Source of the DNA: Gilliamella intestini
GTDB lineage: Bacteria > Pseudomonadota > Gammaproteobacteria > Enterobacterales > Orbaceae
Length of the DNA: 64,000 nt
Reading direction: 5' to 3'
NCBI RefSeq assembly: GCF_900094935.1
Contig: NZ_FMBA01000009.1
Coordinates: 1-64,000 of the forward strand
This document shows, piece after piece, positions 2,757 to 37,175 of the stretch. Position numbers and translations under genes: made by a program. The first letter of the stretch is position 1. The number at the start of each line of letters is the position of its first letter. Below the pieces are notes generated by a model that made no database searches, was not told the DNA's origin, and was given only the letters and a program-made list of their open reading frames with translations.

Positions 2757-4148
2757 TTAAAGGTTTTGTAGTACTTTTTCAACACTGTCTTTAGCATCAC
2801 CAAATAGCATATAGCTATTTTCTTTAAAGAATAGTGGGTTTTGTACACCTGCATAACCAGTATTCATTGAGCGTTTAGAAATAACAACCGTTTTTGCTTT
2901 CCAAACTTCAAGAACAGGCATGCCTGCTATTGGGCTATTTGGATCTTCTTCTGCCGCTGGGTTGACTGTATCGTTAGCTCCAATTACCCAAACCACATCA
3001 GTATCAGGGAAGTCATCGTTGATTTCATCCATTTCTAATACAATATCATAAGGCACTTTTGCTTCGGCTAATAATACATTCATATGCCCAGGTAAACGTC
3101 CTGCTACTGGGTGAATACCAAAACGAACTTCTATACCCATACCACGTAGTCTTTCAGTAATATTACTTACTGCACCTTGAGCTTGAGCAACTGCCATACC
3201 ATATCCAGGAACAATAATAACTGAGCGGGCTTCTTTTAATGTTTGCGCAACTTCGGCTGGTTGCATTTCACGGTATTCACCTTGTTCTTCATCCGATGAA
3301 CTAGCTGCGCTACCATCGCTACCGAAACCGCCAGCAATAACACTAATAAATGAGCGGTTCATCGCTTTACACATAATATATGAAAGAATTGCGCCTGATG
3401 AACCAACTAATGCGCCTGTTACAATTAATAGATCATTGCCTAACATAAAGCCTGCTGCTGCTGCTGCCCAACCTGAATAAGAATTTAGCATTGAAATAAC
3501 AACAGGCATGTCAGCACCACCAATTGAAGCAACAAGATGGAAACCAAACACGAATGCAATAATTGCCATGATCAACAAACTAATTATTGCACCAGCGCCA
3601 CTTTTTACTTCAACAAAAGTAAACATTAAAATGATAGAAACAACAATTGCTGCTAGATTCCAATAATGTTTATTTGGAATTGATAATGGTTTTGAGCTAA
3701 TGCGTCCATTTAATTTACCAAATGCGACAACAGAGCCGGAGAAGGTTACTGCGCCGATAAAGACACCAACAAAAATCTCTACTAAATGTACAGTTAACTC
3801 ACCACCTTGAAAATTTTGAATGTGTGGATCTAAATAACTGTTTAAGCCAACTAGAACAGCAGCCATTCCAACAAAGCTATGAAGTAGTGCAACAAGCTCT
3901 GGCATTTGAGTCATTTCAACTTTTTTAGCCAAATATAAACCAATTACAGCACCAATAATCATTGCAATAACTATCCAGTGTAATCCGCCTTTAATACTTG
4001 CAACTGCTGCAATAAGTGCGATTACCATACCAATCATACCGTAAATATTACCAGATTTGGCAGATTCTTGGTTGGAAAGACCTCGTAAACTAAAGATAAA
4101 AAGTAATGCAGCAATAACATAGGCTGCTTGAATGATTCCATTACTCAT
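2757..4148 (-). CDS. pntB: NAD(P)+ transhydrogenase subunit beta PntB
   Basis: The membrane subunit of the proton-translocating transhydrogenase, which moves hydride from NADH to NADP+ using the proton gradient. At 463 residues it is the length of E. coli PntB (462). About nine hydrophobic segments (residues 5-265) form the proton channel. The C-terminal NADP(H)-binding domain III has [24 protein letters not shown] and [12 protein letters not shown]. It lies 15 bases after pntA in the same operon and is followed by the terminator at 2713-2741. Confidence 0.97.
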
Positions 4149-4163
4149 AATGTATGCTCTCCT

Positions 4164-5696
4164 TTACTTGCCACGTTGGAACATTTTCAGCATTCTTTGA
4201 GTAACAAAGAATCCACCAAAAATATTGATACTAGCAATCAAAATAGCAACAAAAGCAATTGCCGTAGTTAAGCCATTATCATCACTGACTTGTAATATTG
4301 CTCCGACCAATATAATTCCAGAAATTGCATTAGTTACCGACATTAGTGGTGTATGCAAAGAATGTGTAACATTCCATACAACGTAGTAACCAACAACGCA
4401 AGATAATGCAAATACAGTAAAATGCCCTAAAAAGCTTTCAGGAACGGAGTTTGCAAGCCAGAAGAAAACAATGAGAACTAAAGCTAAAATACCATATTTT
4501 TTGCGAGGATCCATTGGCTTTGGTTCTGGTTTAACAATTGGCTCTGCTGCTTTTTTCTGAGGTTGAGCAGATACTTGAATCGGTGGTGCTGGCCAAGTGA
4601 TTTCTTTATCTTTAACCACAGTTACACCACGAATTACAACATCTTCAAAATTGATATCAATATTACCATCTTTTTCTTTAGCAAGCAGTTTTAATAGGTT
4701 AACAATGTTAGTACCATAAAGCTGTGATGCTTGTGCTGGCATACGATTAGCTAAATCAGTATAACCAACAATTTTAACATTGTTATCTGTTTCGAAAATT
4801 TCACCTGGTTTAGTTAATTCACAGTTACCACCAGTTAACGCAGCCAAATCAACAATAACACTACCCGGTTTCATTGATTCAACCATTTCTTTCGAAATGA
4901 GTTTTGGAGCTGGTTTACCTGGAATTAGTGCAGTTGTTATGATGATATCAACATCTTTGGCTTGCTCTGCAAACAGTGCCATTTCAGCTTCAATAAAGGC
5001 CGCTGACATTTGTTTAGCATAACCGTCACCAGAACCTGCTTCTTCTTCAAAATCTAACTCTAAAAAGTCAGCTCCCATGCTATTAATTTGTTCGGCAACT
5101 TCAGGGCGGGTGTCAAAAGCACGAACAATTGCCCCCAGACTCACCGCTGCGCCAATGGCTGCAAGGCCTGCAACACCTGCTCCAATAACTAATATTTTAG
5201 CTGGAGGTACTTTACCAGCAGCAGTAACTTGCCCTGTAAAGAATCGACCAAATTGATTTGCTGCTTCAATAACTGAACGATAACCAGCAATATTAGACAT
5301 TGAGCTTAATGCATCTAGAGATTGTGCACGTGAAATACGTGGTACACAATCCATAGCCATTACAGTAATATTTTTGGTGGCTAATTTTTCTAATAGCTCT
5401 TTATGTTGAGCTGGATAAATATAGCTAATAAGGGTTGAACCCTCTTTCATTAAAGAAATTTCATCATCGCTTGGCGCATGAAACTTCAAAATTAAATCAT
5501 TTTGCCAAACATCTTGTGTGTTTTGAATTGTGGCTCCAGCATCAATAAAAGCTTGGTCTTCATAATGAGCTGCATGTCCAGCGCCTTGTTCTACGGAAAC
5601 TGTAAAGCCCAGTTTTAACAGTTGTCCAACAGTCAAAGGAGTTGCTGCAACTCTAGCTTCATTGGCTAACCGTTCTTTAGGTATACCGATATGCAT
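4164..5696 (-). CDS. pntA: NAD(P)+ transhydrogenase subunit alpha PntA
   Basis: The NAD(H)-binding subunit of the transhydrogenase. Its 510 residues equal the length of E. coli PntA. The N-terminus ([20 protein letters not shown]) is the alanine dehydrogenase/PNT domain. A Rossmann motif ([15 protein letters not shown]) leads to AFDTRPEV, which contacts NAD. After a Pro/Lys-rich linker (about 370-395) come the C-terminal membrane helices. It is the first gene of pntAB and is divergent from the muk operon. Confidence 0.97.
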
Positions 5697-17362: not shown

Positions 17363-17412
17363 TCGTATGGTGTATAGATTTTGCTTTTATAGCCATTTAT
17401 ATAGCGATACGA
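17363..17412 (+). ncRNA. Candidate structured 5' leader of rpmE
   Basis: TCGTAT (17363-17368) pairs with ATACGA (17407-17412), enclosing a further partial pairing (TATAG with CTATA). It sits between the promoter and the ribosome binding site of rpmE. L31 genes of gammaproteobacteria are known to be autogenously controlled and to carry leader RNAs. I cannot confirm that this fold matches the known leader. Confidence 0.4.
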
Positions 17413-17432
17413 ACAAACTTTAGAGGTTTATT

Positions 17433-32429: not shown

Positions 32430-33251
32430 ATGAATTACAAAAAGTGGTTAAATATTTTATTAGTAGGAACTTTATTTTTAACTGGCTGTGATAATCAAAA
32501 TAAAGATACGCAAGCAAAAGGTAAAGAAAAAATTATTATTGCAACATCTGGGGCCCCAAGTCCTTTCACCACGGTAGATAAGAAAGGTGAGCTAATGGGG
32601 TATGATATTGATGTGGTAAAAGCAATATTTGCAAATCTACCTCAATATGAGATTAGCTTTGAAATTACTGAATTTCCATCAGTTTTAGCGGGGCTCGATT
32701 CGCAGCGTTATCAGGTAGGGGCTAATAATTTTGCCATGAATGAAAAACGGAAAGAAAAGTATTTCTATTCTGATCCTATTTTTAAAAATCAATATGCTAT
32801 TGCAGTTGCAACAAAAAATAACAATATTAAACAGTTTACCGATCTTAATGGCAAATCAACCGAAGTGACGCCGGGACTGAATTATGCTACCGCATTAGAG
32901 TTATATAATGAACAACATCCAAATAATCCTGTTAAAATTGTTTATAGTGAAGCTGATTTATTGCCTGTACTTCAGCATGTTGAAACTGGACAATATGATT
33001 TTCAATTAATCGATAAAGTGATGCTATCGCAATTGATTACTGAATATAATCTTAATCTAAAAATAATAGAATTAAACCAAGATGATACTGATCGTATTGG
33101 TTCGCCATACAGTTATTTATTGATCAGTAAAGATGCTAAAGGTGAACAGTTAATTAAAGATATTAACCAAGGGATACAACAAATTATCAATAATGGCAAG
33201 TTGTCGAAAATTAGTGAACATTATTTTGGTACAGATTATTCACCTAAATAA
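32430..33251 (+). CDS. Amino-acid ABC transporter substrate-binding lipoprotein
   Basis: 273 residues. Lipobox LTGC (Cys20) after a hydrophobic signal, so the protein is lipid-anchored. It then has the SBP_bac_3 fold: GELMGYDIDVVKAI, LAGLDSQRYQVGANNFAMNEKRKEKYFYS, which is characteristic of cystine-binding proteins of the FliY/TcyA/TcyJ kind, and NGKLSKISEHYFG at the end. It follows the acetyltransferase by 69 bases and completes the transporter (no second permease is seen; the permease would form a homodimer). Confidence 0.88.
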   Translation: MNYKKWLNILLVGTLFLTGCDNQNKDTQAKGKEKIIIATSGAPSPFTTVDKKGELMGYDIDVVKAIFANLPQYEISFEITEFPSVLAGLDSQRYQVGANNFAMNEKRKEKYFYSDPIFKNQYAIAVATKNNNIKQFTDLNGKSTEVTPGLNYATALELYNEQHPNNPVKIVYSEADLLPVLQHVETGQYDFQLIDKVMLSQLITEYNLNLKIIELNQDDTDRIGSPYSYLLISKDAKGEQLIKDINQGIQQIINNGKLSKISEHYFGTDYSPK

Positions 33252-33288
33252 TCAATTTTCTACTCTTTTAAATTGATAATCAATTTTT

Positions 33289-33690
33289 TTATGCTAATGG
33301 CAGATAAACATCGGTTATCATGCCTTGTGATCGAATATTAGGAATTACATTTACATAATGGAAAATTAGCGGAAAGTAACCATTTACTTCCTATCTTGTG
33401 TAGACGTATTGTGAATAAGTAAATAATAGCTTGATTATTTTTTCTTGAGCAGGCGTCCTTAGCATTAGCTCAGTGTAGTGGTAGTATGGTCTTATTGATA
33501 ACATCATAAGGATTTTCCGCAATTGGTCTATCAATTGATATGACAAAATCAATATACTGTTTATCTTACAACGAAGTGGTATTAGGATTGGGATAGTAAA
33601 TGCGATAACTTTGGTATTTATAGCAATCTAACATATTGTTATCTTGTTGCTGTTTAACCAGTTTATTGACCGTTTTATATTATAATAAAG
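33289..33690 (-). pseudogene. Broken AraC-family regulator, GyrI-like effector domain
   Basis: Minus-strand pieces in order: LDCYKYQSYRIYYPNPNTT, a stop, DKQYIDFVISIDRPIAENPYDV, INKTILPLH, a stop, ANAKDACSRKNNQAIIYLF, then after a frameshift LIFHYVNVIPNIRSQGM and TDVYLPLA with a TAA at 33289. This is the layout of the GyrI-like domain of AraC-type regulators, whose usual end is hYxNxxP...TDIYLPL. At least two stops and one frameshift break it, and the DNA-binding domain is not visible. Confidence 0.65.
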
Positions 33691-33703
33691 GTGAACTATA
33701 ATG

Positions 33704-33892
33704 TTAATAATGACTAATTGTGTCATGGAAAATTGTACAATTTTTACCTTCATAAGTTACTCCCAAGAATTCAGCTTTATTGAATATTATTATCTTTTCA
33801 TTAAGTAGAAAATCATTTGAATCAATGGAATTCAAATCGTAATAGAGATTAGTGCAAAAGTAATATTTACCATCGATTATTGGTTTAATTTC
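33704..33892 (-). pseudogene. Unidentified gene remnant without a start
   Basis: A 62-codon open frame on the minus strand reads EIKPIIDGKYYFCTNLYY, then DLNSIDSNDFLLNEK and FLGVTYEGKNCTIFHD before TAA at 33704. The amino-acid balance (charged, aromatic and few rare residues) looks like real protein, but no ATG or ribosome binding site starts it. I do not recognise a family. It lies between the AraC remnant and the RNA-repair promoter. Confidence 0.35.
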
Positions 33893-33915: not shown

Positions 33916-33944
33916 TTGACAAATAATTAACAGCCGTTAATAAT
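33916..33944 (+). promoter_or_regulatory. Strong sigma-70 promoter of the RNA-repair operon
   Basis: A perfect TTGACA (33916-33921), a 17-base spacer and AATAAT (33939-33944). Transcription would begin near 33951, leaving a leader of about 190 bases before the ligase. No sigma-54 element is seen, unlike rtcBA. Confidence 0.7.
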
Positions 33945-33990
33945 GGCGCCGTTTTTTAACCTTAAACTTTAATTTTAATGAGGTGGCAAA

Positions 33991-34017
33991 ATGCCTTTAG
34001 TTAACACTTTATCTTAA
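33991..34017 (+). CDS. Candidate leader peptide MPLVNTLS
   Basis: An eight-codon reading frame (ATG at 33991, TAA at 34015-34017) has a strong ribosome binding site, GAGGTGG, a few bases upstream. Its position between the promoter and a structured segment suggests a leader peptide that could couple translation to folding of the downstream RNA. There is no run of one amino acid, so classical amino-acid attenuation is not indicated. Confidence 0.35.
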   Translation: MPLVNTLS

Positions 34018-34018
34018 T

Positions 34019-34110
34019 GCCGACATGGTACCTTCTATCATATTGTCTTTTGCTTAGTATTATCTAAGCCCCTTCGTCACAATTCAATCTATAGATTTTT
34101 GCCTTGTCGG
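34019..34110 (+). ncRNA. Structured 5' leader RNA of the RNA-repair operon
   Basis: CCGACA (34020-34025) can pair with TGTCGG (34105-34110), closing a domain that contains a perfect hairpin, GCTTAG (34052-34057) with CTAAGC (34064-34069), and a self-complementary AATCTATAGATT. TTTTCCCTTATTTTTTT follows, so the outer stem could act as an attenuator. This is a reading by eye; no known riboswitch family is recognised. Confidence 0.35.
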
Positions 34111-34139
34111 TTTTCCCTTATTTTTTTGGAGAAAACATC

Positions 34140-35003
34140 ATGACAATGGAATCTTATATTCAAAATTTAGAATTAATTAAATATCCACGAACACCGCACC
34201 TAGAAAGCTCACGCCTACAGTTTGGTGATAGTGAACATGGGCAACGTCCTTATAGCCTACTTGCAGGTAAATATATTGTTGTTGAAGAAAAGCTGGATGG
34301 CGCAAATTGTGCAATTAGTTTTTCTGCTTATGGTGAATTATTATTACAATCACGAGGGCACTATTTATTGGGTGGTGCAAGAAAACGACAATTCAACCTA
34401 CTAAAACACTGGGCAGTGGTACATGAACGTTGGTTACTTGAGCGTTTAGAAGATCGTTATATTTTGTATGGCGAATGGTTACATAAAAAGCACGCTATCT
34501 TTTATGATGCTTTACCGCACTATTTTTGTGAATTTGATATTTGGGATAGGCAACAAAACTGTTTTTTATCGACTTTAAAGCGACATAAGTTATTGGCTGG
34601 TGGTCCTATTTTATCGGTACCTGTGCTATTTGCAGGGATTGCACCTTCTAAATTGAGCGATTTATTGGCATTAGTCAAGCCATCTTTAGCTAAAACAGCC
34701 AATTGGCGTACTTGCTTTGAACAAATGGTGATGCGTGAAAAGCTTGACTTAAGCAAAGCTTGGCAACAATGCGATAACTCTGACTTGATGGAAGGGTTAT
34801 ATCTTAAAATCGAATCGGAAGAACAAACCATTGATCGATTAAAATGGGTTAGGCAGGATTTTGTTCAGGCGATTTTAGATGCAGGGCAACACCATAGTGA
34901 ACAGCCTTTTATTCCAAACCAATTGGCTCAACATGTTGAGTTATATACACCTCAATTAACAGTGAATTGGAATAATGGATGCCTAAACGGAGGTAAATTA
35001 TGA
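34140..35003 (+). CDS. ATP-dependent RNA ligase family protein
   Basis: A nucleotidyltransferase-type RNA ligase of 287 residues that should seal 5'-phosphate and 3'-OH ends. I start at ATG 34140 (MTMESYIQN), 13 bases after GGAG; a TTG-led extension to 34104 is not supported. Motif I EEKLDGANCAI carries the AMP-accepting Lys51, then the conserved SRGHYL (near 71), motif III LYGEWL (109-114), motif IV LMEGLYLKIE (216-225) and motif V RLKWVR (233-238). All ligation motifs are present. Its stop overlaps the next start by four bases, so the two genes are coupled. Confidence 0.88.
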   Translation: MTMESYIQNLELIKYPRTPHLESSRLQFGDSEHGQRPYSLLAGKYIVVEEKLDGANCAISFSAYGELLLQSRGHYLLGGARKRQFNLLKHWAVVHERWLLERLEDRYILYGEWLHKKHAIFYDALPHYFCEFDIWDRQQNCFLSTLKRHKLLAGGPILSVPVLFAGIAPSKLSDLLALVKPSLAKTANWRTCFEQMVMREKLDLSKAWQQCDNSDLMEGLYLKIESEEQTIDRLKWVRQDFVQAILDAGQHHSEQPFIPNQLAQHVELYTPQLTVNWNNGCLNGGKL

Positions 35004-36142
35004 ATTACCAAGCACTAAAACAACAAATAGCAAGTACGTTGGCAACAGATGATTTTAGCCCATGGTTAACCTGTATTCCTGAATTGAATAGTTTGATAAT
35101 AACGCCACAAGATCCCTCGCATCATGGAGAGGGGAACGTTTGGGTTCATACGCAAATGGTTGTGCGTGCATTATTAACGCAAGAAGAGTTTACCAACGCA
35201 ACAGAAGATGAGCAGTTTGTATTATTTATGACTGCTTTATTACATGATATCGCTAAGCCAGAAACCACCGTCATAGATGAGTTGACAGGTAAAATTACAC
35301 AACCAAGGCATTCCAAAAAAGGCGAGATCCGTAGTCGTATATTATTATGGCGAATGGGGGTGCCATTTGATTTGCGGGAACAAATCTGCCGAATCATTAG
35401 TGTACATCAAGTGCCTTTTTTTGCTTTAAGTGATAGCGTAAGAAATAAATCACCCGAATATTTAATTCACCGTTTATCGTGGCAATTGCCTATTTGGATG
35501 TTGTGTTTACAAGCTAAAGCAGATATGGAAGGTCGTATTTGTGCTGATAAAAAAAGATCGCTTGATGAAGTTGAATTATTTAAACAGTTGGCCTTTGAAG
35601 AAGGATGTTTATATCACCCTCGCCAATTTGTTGATGATTATACTCGCATTCAATATTTTCGAGGCAGTAATGTATTACCTGATTATGCATTATATCCTCA
35701 AGAAGGATCTATGGTGATTATGCTAGCTGGTTTACCTGCATCGGGTAAAAATAGTTGGGTGAGTAAACATTATCCAACATGGGATGTTGCTTCTTATGAT
35801 GATGCTAGATCTGAGCTAAAACTAAAGCACGGTGAAAACGAAGGGCTGGTTATTCAGTTTGTGTTAGCAAAGGTTAAACAGTGGTTAAGAACAAAACAAC
35901 CTTTTATTTGGAATGCGACCCACTTATCGCAAGAGATGCGTCAAAAAGCACTCGATTTGCTTTATGCTTATCATGCGAATGTGGAAATTGTCTATCTTGA
36001 ACAACCAGAAAAAGAGTTATATCGCCGTAATTCAGCACGAGATACTACGCTGCCAAATAAAGCAATTCAGCGGTTATTAAATAAATGGGAAGTTCCTCTA
36101 CCGACTGAAGCACATAAGGTGAGCTATTTTATTAATCAATAA
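35000..36142 (+). CDS. HD-Pnk: HD phosphoesterase and polynucleotide 5'-kinase, RNA end-healing
   Basis: 380 residues with two domains. The N-terminal HD domain (about 40-200) has His41/His42, His50 (WVHTQM), His82-Asp83 (LLHDIAKPE) and later SVHQVP, as expected for metal-dependent 2',3'-phosphoesterase activity. The C-terminal kinase domain (about 236-380) has the P-loop GLPASGKN (244-251), SYDDARSE, and an Arg-rich lid (LYRRNSARD). The same architecture in characterised HD-Pnk (Runella) heals broken ends to 5'-phosphate and 3'-OH, the substrates of the ligase encoded just upstream. Confidence 0.88.
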   Translation: MNYQALKQQIASTLATDDFSPWLTCIPELNSLIITPQDPSHHGEGNVWVHTQMVVRALLTQEEFTNATEDEQFVLFMTALLHDIAKPETTVIDELTGKITQPRHSKKGEIRSRILLWRMGVPFDLREQICRIISVHQVPFFALSDSVRNKSPEYLIHRLSWQLPIWMLCLQAKADMEGRICADKKRSLDEVELFKQLAFEEGCLYHPRQFVDDYTRIQYFRGSNVLPDYALYPQEGSMVIMLAGLPASGKNSWVSKHYPTWDVASYDDARSELKLKHGENEGLVIQFVLAKVKQWLRTKQPFIWNATHLSQEMRQKALDLLYAYHANVEIVYLEQPEKELYRRNSARDTTLPNKAIQRLLNKWEVPLPTEAHKVSYFINQ

Positions 36143-36281: not shown

Positions 36282-37175
36282 TTATCCATTATATTGAGAC
36301 AAAAACCAAGTAATTGCAATTAAATCCGCCGATCCGCCAGGGCTTAAATTGCGTTTTATTAATTCACTATCAAGTTGATATAAATTTTCTCGTACTTTTG
36401 GATTGATTATGCCACCTTGTTTGATGAGATTTTTCGCTTGTTCTTGTACAAAGGCCAAGCCATCAAGTCCACCTCGAGAAACTACATTAGTGTCTTGATT
36501 AAAAGCAAGTAAATGTAACATCGCTTGTAATAAGCAAGTTTCTTCATCATAGCTGTTCTTTTGCATTTGTTGAAAGATAGGCAGTGAGATATTTCTAACT
36601 GTTGCATAACCTGATTCTGCTTCTCCTCTTGCTCCTGTAAGGTTATGGCGTTTAAATAACTTTTCACCTACAGAGTTTGTTAGATTATTTTGTTTTAGCT
36701 CGCTTTGAACAATGCCTTGGCAAATGGATGAAACTTCGTTACAAATGCTTTGTATATTGATTGGTAAGTTTAATTGCTCTAACTTGCCAATAGCACCGAG
36801 TAGCAAACCAAAGGCAAATATCCCGCCTTTATGAGTATTAACTTGATTGGTGGCTTTAAACATCGCTTGTTCGCACTCAATACCAATAGGTCTAATACCA
36901 GCTAAAAATAGGTTGTTATCGTGCAAAGCTGATGTTTTACCATATTGGTAAAAACGTTCAAACCAGACACAAATAGCACTAATACTTTGAATAAAGGTCT
37001 GGAAATCCATATCACGATGTGCACCACTATTATTCATATCAACTAATCCGGGTTTTGGTGATAAGCAAATTTCTTTGATTAATGCTTTGGTTGCTAATTG
37101 CGCAGGTAAACATCGGTTAGAGTCATTATTGAGTTGTAATTCTAATAATGCTACTTGCTGAGAATAATCACTCAT
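36282..37175 (-). CDS. citG: Triphosphoribosyl-dephospho-CoA synthase CitG
   Basis: Makes the precursor of the citrate lyase prosthetic group from ATP and dephospho-CoA; CitX then attaches it to CitD. 297 residues (E. coli 292). The family motifs EICLSPKPGLVDMNNSGAHRDMD, NTHKGGIFAFGLLLG, NLTGARGEAESGYATV, DTNVVSRGGLDGL and SPGGSADLIAITWFL are all present. It is about 14 kb from citX, downstream of ftsK on the same strand, and not part of the cit operon. The ftsK-citG gap is 99 bases. Confidence 0.93.
   Translation of the reverse strand: MSDYSQQVALLELQLNNDSNRCLPAQLATKALIKEICLSPKPGLVDMNNSGAHRDMDFQTFIQSISAICVWFERFYQYGKTSALHDNNLFLAGIRPIGIECEQAMFKATNQVNTHKGGIFAFGLLLGAIGKLEQLNLPINIQSICNEVSSICQGIVQSELKQNNLTNSVGEKLFKRHNLTGARGEAESGYATVRNISLPIFQQMQKNSYDEETCLLQAMLHLLAFNQDTNVVSRGGLDGLAFVQEQAKNLIKQGGIINPKVRENLYQLDSELIKRNLSPGGSADLIAITWFLSQYNG

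Follow-up and report, generated by a model that had tools for sequence, protein, structure and literature searches.

The stretch of DNA analysed, hereafter the window, comprises positions 1 to 64,000 of contig NZ_FMBA01000009.1 of Gilliamella intestini (assembly GCF_900094935.1). It contains a two-gene cassette predicted to encode an RNA ligase and an HD phosphoesterase–polynucleotide kinase (HD-Pnk), preceded by a leader that includes an open reading frame (ORF) of eight codons. The cassette, its leader and the occurrence of this leader in other bacteria are described here. The two genes are:

34140–35003, + strand: ATP-type RNA ligase, 287 amino acids (Pfam PF09414, alignment, structure model)
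35000–36142, + strand: HD-Pnk, 380 amino acids (Pfam, alignment, structure model)

The reading frames share four bases (ATGA). The ligase matched Pfam RNA_ligase PF09414 (E value 7e-34) and the second protein AAA_33 PF13671 (E value 2e-17), with a match to HD PF01966 below the Pfam cut-off (19.9 vs. 22 bits). These matches and the coordinates agree with the first-pass annotation of the window, which had proposed an RNA ligase and HD-Pnk cassette with a 4-base overlap. The nucleotidyltransferase lysine of the ligase is K51, within EEKLDGAN, and K51 and D53 were invariant among 32 aligned sequences. In HD-Pnk, H82, D83, G249, and K250 were invariant among 30 aligned sequences. With its PF09414 domain and the KxDG lysine, the window ligase fits the class of ATP-dependent RNA ligases, and the second protein fits HD-Pnk in having an N-terminal HD motif and a C-terminal P-loop kinase; both activities are predicted.

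The predicted ligase structure (predicted local distance difference test score, pLDDT, 89) was nearest to nick-sealing RNA ligases, the Naegleria RNA ligase first and T4 Rnl2 lower. The window ligase is like the Rnl2/Rnl5-type ligases in predicted fold and nucleotidyltransferase motifs, and unlike them in that the template-modelling (TM) scores of the query were about 0.4–0.5 and its profile had no match at E 0.01 among PDB sequences. The HD-Pnk model (pLDDT 94.5) has a kinase half that resembles polynucleotide kinases. Its Walker A motif is GLPASGKN, and GKN (GKD in locus L045) was found across four aligned HD-Pnk proteins; the Walker A lysine usually precedes S or T, and N or D is seen here instead. 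HD-Pnk and RNA repair have been studied earlier by Shuman and by Burroughs and Aravind.

The leader was resolved into the following features:

33916–33944, + strand: sigma-70 promoter, TTGACA-N17-AATAAT, kept in aligned Gilliamella-type leaders
33945–33951, + strand: G+C-rich stretch after the promoter, GGCGCCG
33980–33986, + strand: Shine-Dalgarno (SD) sequence of the leader ORF, GAGGTGG
33991–34017, + strand: leader ORF, eight codons, MPLVNTLS (ATG CCT TTA GTT AAC ACT TTA TCT), stop TAA
34019–34025, + strand: 5′ strand of helix P1, GCCGACA, one base past the ORF stop, with compensatory changes between genera
34027–34104, + strand: apical domain closed by P1, with inner pairs GGUA/UGCC and UCUAU/AUAGA and a variable hairpin
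34105–34111, + strand: 3′ strand of P1, TGTCGGT, of which 34108–34111 is shared with the helix that hides the ribosome-binding site (RBS)
34108–34142, + strand: RBS-hiding stem, predicted by masked folding when the ribosome occupies the ORF stop

In the RBS-hiding stem, 34110–34117 is predicted to pair with 34128–34136 and 34108–34109 with 34141–34142, so that it contains the ligase SD sequence (GGAG, 34128–34131) and part of the ligase AUG. The window leader folded better than its shuffled versions (z = −2.35; 3 of 200 shuffles as good), as expected from the structured leader proposed earlier, and the eight-codon ORF with its RBS was likewise found and is putatively translated. The promoter was located where it had been placed before. 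The promoter scan by itself was at chance level (3 found vs. 3.1 expected), and the promoter call therefore stands because of conservation among relatives rather than because of the scan score: CTTGACAA and ATAAT were invariant across 18 aligned Gilliamella-type leaders.

Within the genus, the ligase was present in 18 of 35 genomes, that of the window included, and was broken in one of them. Eighteen leaders were aligned, that of the genome with the broken ligase not among them. Their promoter is followed, past the −10 box, by G+C-rich sequence, and their SD sequence is GAGGTGG (GAGGTAG in one); the ORF had exactly eight codons in 18/18, encoding MPLVNTLS, MPVVNTLS, MPVINTLS, MPVFNTLS, or MPVTYFLS. 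One base past the stop, GCCGACA or a near form of it was found, with the partner TGTCGGT invariant, and a stem of GTTTTCCC..GGAGAAAAC, or of closely similar sequence, covered the ligase SD sequence. A covariance model built from the 18 leaders was run on 44 genomes of the family, with the stricter search filters that apply above 40 genomes. It detected the leader in 19 of the 44, those that carry the cassette, at 130–192 bits, as a single strong site each, adjoining the ligase; the best score in the remaining 25 genomes, one of which (G030) retains only an HD-Pnk fragment, was 22.3 bits. Because 18 of the 19 leaders had built the model, the independent information lies in the 19th leader (genome G018) and in the absence elsewhere.

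Genome G018 (L018/L022) was found to have a broken ligase gene, a leader ORF with ATG changed to TTG, an altered RBS stem and an open HD-Pnk frame; L022 was excluded from the two alignments (A1 and A2) and from the RNAalifold run. Three contigs labelled Snodgrassella alvi (L099, L101, and L106) carry a Gilliamella-type cassette and perhaps belong to mixed bee-gut assemblies.

More distant loci were taken as the best 80 of 395 relatives in a search of genome contigs, 77 of them proteobacterial and three actinobacterial, or so labelled. They span Gilliamella, Pseudomonas, Pectobacterium, Achromobacter, Burkholderia, Wohlfahrtiimonas, oxalobacters, comamonads, and relatives. HD-Pnk was found downstream of the ligase in 78 loci, and the two remaining contigs end before it. 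A leader ORF of 7–9 codons was present in 77/77 proteobacterial loci, 122–342 bases ahead of the ligase; 68 of these ORFs came from an automatic scan (which gave a candidate in 69 of the 80 loci, that of L131 being wrong and replaced) and nine were found by reading. The scan gave candidates in 0/3 actinobacterial loci. The 77 ORFs had eight codons in 50 loci, nine in 25, and seven in two, with GTG (47) or ATG (30) as start codon, P (53) or S (19) as the commonest second residues and an SD sequence of at least four letters in 68. A firm helix between the stretch at the ORF stop and the last 85 bases before the ligase was detected in 68/77 loci, and the P1-type helices enclose 42–254 bases. In a Pectobacterium-like genus, the ligase was found in 20 of 25 genomes (two in pieces) and the ORF was kept in 20/20 aligned leaders. 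Conservation and covariation of the leader in cassette-bearing relatives, on which the first-pass annotation had staked its case beforehand, were thus found, with compensatory changes in P1.

The encoded peptides are not conserved between clades (PYASQHA, PCTSAPH, LVALINA, SAIRQFA, PRFFAITC, PRRTASC, etc. after the start), and among 38 listed ORFs no sense codon after the start was common to all. The conservation of MPLVNTLS suggested earlier was therefore not borne out: the peptide varies, and it is the length of the ORF and the position of its stop that are kept. In one locus, L149 of Pectobacterium sp. CFBP8739, the HD-Pnk frame is split in two (3376–4545), with the ligase frame open and the leader present.

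For comparison with chance, 58 loci were picked by hand to span the clades, near-duplicates being omitted, and subjected to a strict automatic test that demanded an ORF of 7–9 codons, an SD sequence of four letters and a helix of set strength at most 10 bases from the stop. The test was passed by 42/58 loci, compared to 124 of 5800 shuffled sequences (2.1%) and 72 of 2009 other windows of the same loci (3.6%). In P1, changes on both sides of the helix were seen at position 1 (G-C, A-U), position 3 (C-G, U-A), and position 7 (G-C, A-U) among 13 distinct helices. These came from 22 leaders with the wanted start pattern among the 32 of 38 that had a run of six pairs, and this selection for a matching start leans toward pairing.

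The effect of ribosome position was modelled in 38 leaders, hand-picked to span the clades without near-duplicates, in which a ribosome was represented by a mask of 31 bases and the energy needed to open the ligase RBS was computed. In 34/38 leaders, moving the ribosome from codon 3 to the last sense codon was predicted to make the RBS harder to open; in 24 the difference exceeded 2 kcal/mol, and its mean was +3.28 kcal/mol. In the controls the mean was +0.34 when the 12 bases after the stop (region 2) were shuffled, −0.05 when the apical domain was shuffled and +0.78 when the RBS was shuffled. Rank tests gave p from 4e-7 to 2e-12. For the window leader, the opening energy went from 5.1 kcal/mol at codon 3 to 10.4 kcal/mol at the stop and rose as the P site moved from codon 5 to codon 6; across the set the rise came earliest at codon 4 (L139, L145) and latest at the final codon (L119, L126). 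The sign was robust to footprint edges from +11 to +17, to an SD-only target and to cutting the gene at +3 (means of 1.95–3.18, with 29–35 of the 38 leaders higher and 3–5 lower). Both predicted folds are seen plainly in L124, in which GCUGACGACA/UGUCGUCAGC alternates with a helix of the same 3′ strand that closes the SD sequence and the AUG. The regulation that had been proposed for the leader is in this way backed by comparison and by predicted masked folds.

We consider it probable (roughly 0.6) that the leader acts as a translational attenuator, raising the synthesis of the RNA-repair enzymes when ribosomes stall early on the eight-codon ORF. Region 2, the 5′ strand of P1 at or just past the ORF stop, and region 4, the SD sequence and start of the ligase gene, would compete for region 3, which consists of the 3′ strand of P1 and the bases that follow. 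A ribosome at the stop would cover about nine bases downstream, i.e., region 2, leaving region 3 to close the ligase RBS, whereas stalling on the first codons would leave region 2 uncovered, so that P1 could form and the RBS would be easier to open. Cut tRNA or damaged ribosomes might in this manner cause a stall, more ligase and HD-Pnk would be made, and RNA would be healed and sealed. The analysis shows the conservation, the paired changes in P1, the association with the cassette and a predicted switch; which way the switch would work in cells, which damage would induce it and which RNAs would be mended are inferred. That the ORF is translated is suggested by its conservation. As it is the length and the stop position of the ORF that persist, and not the peptide, the leader in all likelihood senses early elongation in general rather than one amino acid. 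The eight-codon geometry, in which an early ribosome frees P1 and a ribosome at the stop covers it, would explain a kept length together with a free sequence.

Several results weigh against such an attenuator. The helix at the stop was weak in 9/77 loci (L139, L140, L147, L155, L160, L162, L168, L172, and L173), and 6/38 leaders had no run of six pairs. The Gilliamella-type model, run against 40 loci, reached one distant leader only, and weakly (L116, E value 0.43), so that the link between clades rests more on layout than on sequence. In the masked folding, the sign was opposite in 3/38 leaders, two of Pectobacterium type (−1.2 and −2.2) and L161 (−0.6), and the effect was near zero in six (L122, L143, L146, L136, L147, and L156). 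Compared with the ribosome-free fold, the stop state was tighter in only 23/38 leaders and looser in 5 (mean +1.46), and without a ribosome the Gilliamella leaders were predicted to be open and the Pseudomonas leaders closed. The loci share ancestry, so the p-values overstate their independence. A ribosome dwells at a stop codon only for a short time. A direct repeat of region 2 within region 4 was rejected as a general basis of the switch (mean shared word 4.37 vs. 4.02 when shuffled); a repeat of at least six letters was found in 5/38 leaders and was clear in L124, L145, and L152.

Further points, both for and against, came from draws of genomes that were not ranked by similarity. When the order was drawn evenly and searched with HD-Pnk, 12 of 295 genomes matched, with five loci outside the family of the window; the leader was present in L044 and L045 and absent in L046, L047, and L048. 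Of these, L046 is a ligase-Pnk pair from Enterobacterales whose ligase is 59% identical to that of the window and which has no such P1, and neither L047 nor L048 showed such a leader. In favour of the attenuator, among 299 genomes drawn evenly from family f134, which its leaders suggest to be beta-proteobacterial, 15 had the ligase and 14 of those 15 the leader ORF, as read from candidate lists (L179 being without it); no clear P1 was seen in L195. An even draw of the class gave a ligase match in 5 of 369 genomes; in L180–L182 the match spans only about 160 residues, coding-like sequence lies immediately upstream and there is no such leader. The leader layout is therefore a property of one branch of ligase-Pnk pairs and not of all.

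L046 was also observed to contain, at 180–210, an ORF of five codons (MNMKI) with a strong SD sequence (AGGAGG), about 370 bases before the ligase. It was not counted as a leader ORF on account of its different geometry and perhaps represents another kind of leader.

A second leader type was recognized by a long apical domain, GCAGC..UCG..GGCGC-GUCUGCGCC..GGCUGCGGYAC, present whole or in part in L075, L161, L185, L156, L158, and L143. It is common to Pectobacterium and several beta-proteobacteria; L158 has it and yet gave +2.2 kcal/mol. Parts of this domain recur in misfitting leaders (the two of Pectobacterium type, L161, L143, L146, and L156), suggesting another sensing element or else a fold missed by the energy model.

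The same domain bears on a riboswitch-like alternative, in which the domain enclosed by P1 would directly sense a ligand, a protein or an RNA end and the ORF would merely set a baseline. The strong conservation of the long apical domain in Pectobacterium-type leaders, its recurrence in beta-proteobacteria (L161, L185, L156, L158) and the fact that several leaders with this domain are those unexplained by masked folding speak for such sensing. We nevertheless regard it as unlikely, as no apical sequence was seen to be common to all clades and the leader ORF was present in all 77 proteobacterial loci. Likewise, no Rfam family was matched at the leader in the loci scanned: in the window leader region, at E values up to 10, there were only four sub-threshold matches, to eukaryotic families, and in 17 loci, at E values up to 1, nothing was found at the leader. 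Transcription attenuation seems about equally improbable. P1 would then be a terminator stem before U-rich sequence, with the position of the ribosome deciding on read-through as in armZ or trp, and a U-rich stretch does follow P1 in leaders of the Gilliamella, Pseudomonas, Burkholderia, and Pectobacterium types; work on armZ also describes a transcription-attenuating leader (PMC13041342). Against this, no terminator was found at P1 in the window leader by a scan that covered loops of 3–8 bases only, the enclosed 42–254 bases are in our judgement long for a terminator loop and the U-run is absent in the Janthinobacterium, Pseudoduganella, and Pelomonas leaders examined.

Still less probable, and in our view very unlikely, is that the ORF and helix carry no signal and only protect the mRNA or reduce translation. 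The opening energies are predictions, which leaves room for this idea, but the length of the ORF and the place of its stop persist across many genera, P1 shows compensatory changes and the effect of ribosome position was mostly lost in the three shuffled controls.

Compared to known systems, the proposed attenuator is closest in action to the erm type, for which a short leader ORF, competing hairpins and stalling, caused by macrolides, that opens a downstream translation start are described (PMC11264731). The leader shares with it a putative short ORF with its own SD sequence, start and stop, and predicted, mutually exclusive folds, one of which hides the RBS of the gene and which would be picked by ribosome position. 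It differs from what is described there in that its ORF has only 7–9 codons, its peptide varies and the genes under its proposed control are expected to repair RNA. The conserved stalling nascent peptide of erm was not found, the peptide differing between clades, nor was there, among the 38 ORFs, the run of codons for one amino acid that marks amino-acid attenuators. In PA5471.1-armZ of Pseudomonas aeruginosa, ribosome stalling within the leader ORF likewise switches on the downstream gene, also when the tRNA CCA-adding enzyme is mutated (PMC13041342). That leader is described as acting by transcription attenuation and as controlling an anti-repressor gene for drug efflux (PMC13041342); its genes and its leader differ from those here.

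As for RNA repair, the RtcR-controlled rtcBA operon is described as induced by RNA damage, there through tRNA fragments (PMC7790460). It relies on a protein activator and on the RtcB/RtcA enzymes (PMC7790460); the cassette here has a leader of RNA and pairs its ATP-type ligase with HD-Pnk. RtcB with an adjacent RtcR was not found at the cassette, where the ligase is of PF09414 and the neighbours differ, the rest of the genome not having been searched for RtcB or RtcR. In Deinococcus, the operon DRB0098–DRB0100 encodes an end-healing enzyme of HD and kinase domains and also includes a ligase gene (PMC1997131). The passages covered describe that ligase as a predicted ATP-dependent DNA ligase and the third gene as weakly similar to macro domains, and mention no such leader (PMC1997131). 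Among the matches listed, no description of the leader was found in open-licence literature, and papers matched on the term RNA ligase use it, in the passages covered, as a reagent. The leader thus resembles those of erm and armZ in its proposed action but would serve RNA repair, for which the regulated route found among the papers listed is that of the RtcR protein.

To our knowledge, neither trigger nor purpose is known for bacterial cassettes of RNA ligase and HD-Pnk. A leader that reads stalling, if real, would name their trigger, would add to RtcR a second, protein-free route by which bacteria sense RNA damage and would be a case of attenuation set by the geometry of an ORF and not by the sequence of its peptide. 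More tentatively, and with somewhat less than even confidence, we suggest that the leader is an self-contained, RNA-only damage sensor for any failure of early elongation, whichever codon is affected, which would couple broken tRNA or rRNA to the synthesis of the repair enzymes and which beta- and gamma-proteobacteria would have retained instead of a protein regulator, the second leader type adding a conserved apical domain. The leader can also be used as an address tag for finding further such cassettes.

The cassette is flanked by genes for a substrate-binding protein (32430–33251) and CitG (36282–37175). Upstream of the promoter, a relic of a GyrI-like gene was observed on the minus strand (33285–33755); the corresponding ORF is intact at the same place in L009 (731–1219, minus strand; Pfam GyrI-like, E value 2e-20) and broken in L014. 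A supposed tRNA remnant at about 33463 was rejected, as no tRNA was found and the tRNA-like stretch lies, by chance, inside the GyrI-like relic. The first-pass annotation had seen decayed genes beside the cassette and taken them as a hint of defence: the decayed neighbour is real, whereas the hint of defence was not supported, since PADLOC gave no match for the ligase or HD-Pnk protein and the cassette had the same upstream neighbours in L009 and L014, the two other Gilliamella-type loci whose upstream genes were read. As a whole, the earlier interpretation is partly supported. Elsewhere in the window, at 17364–17427, the Rfam ribosomal protein leader L31-Gammaproteobacteria was detected with 40 bits.

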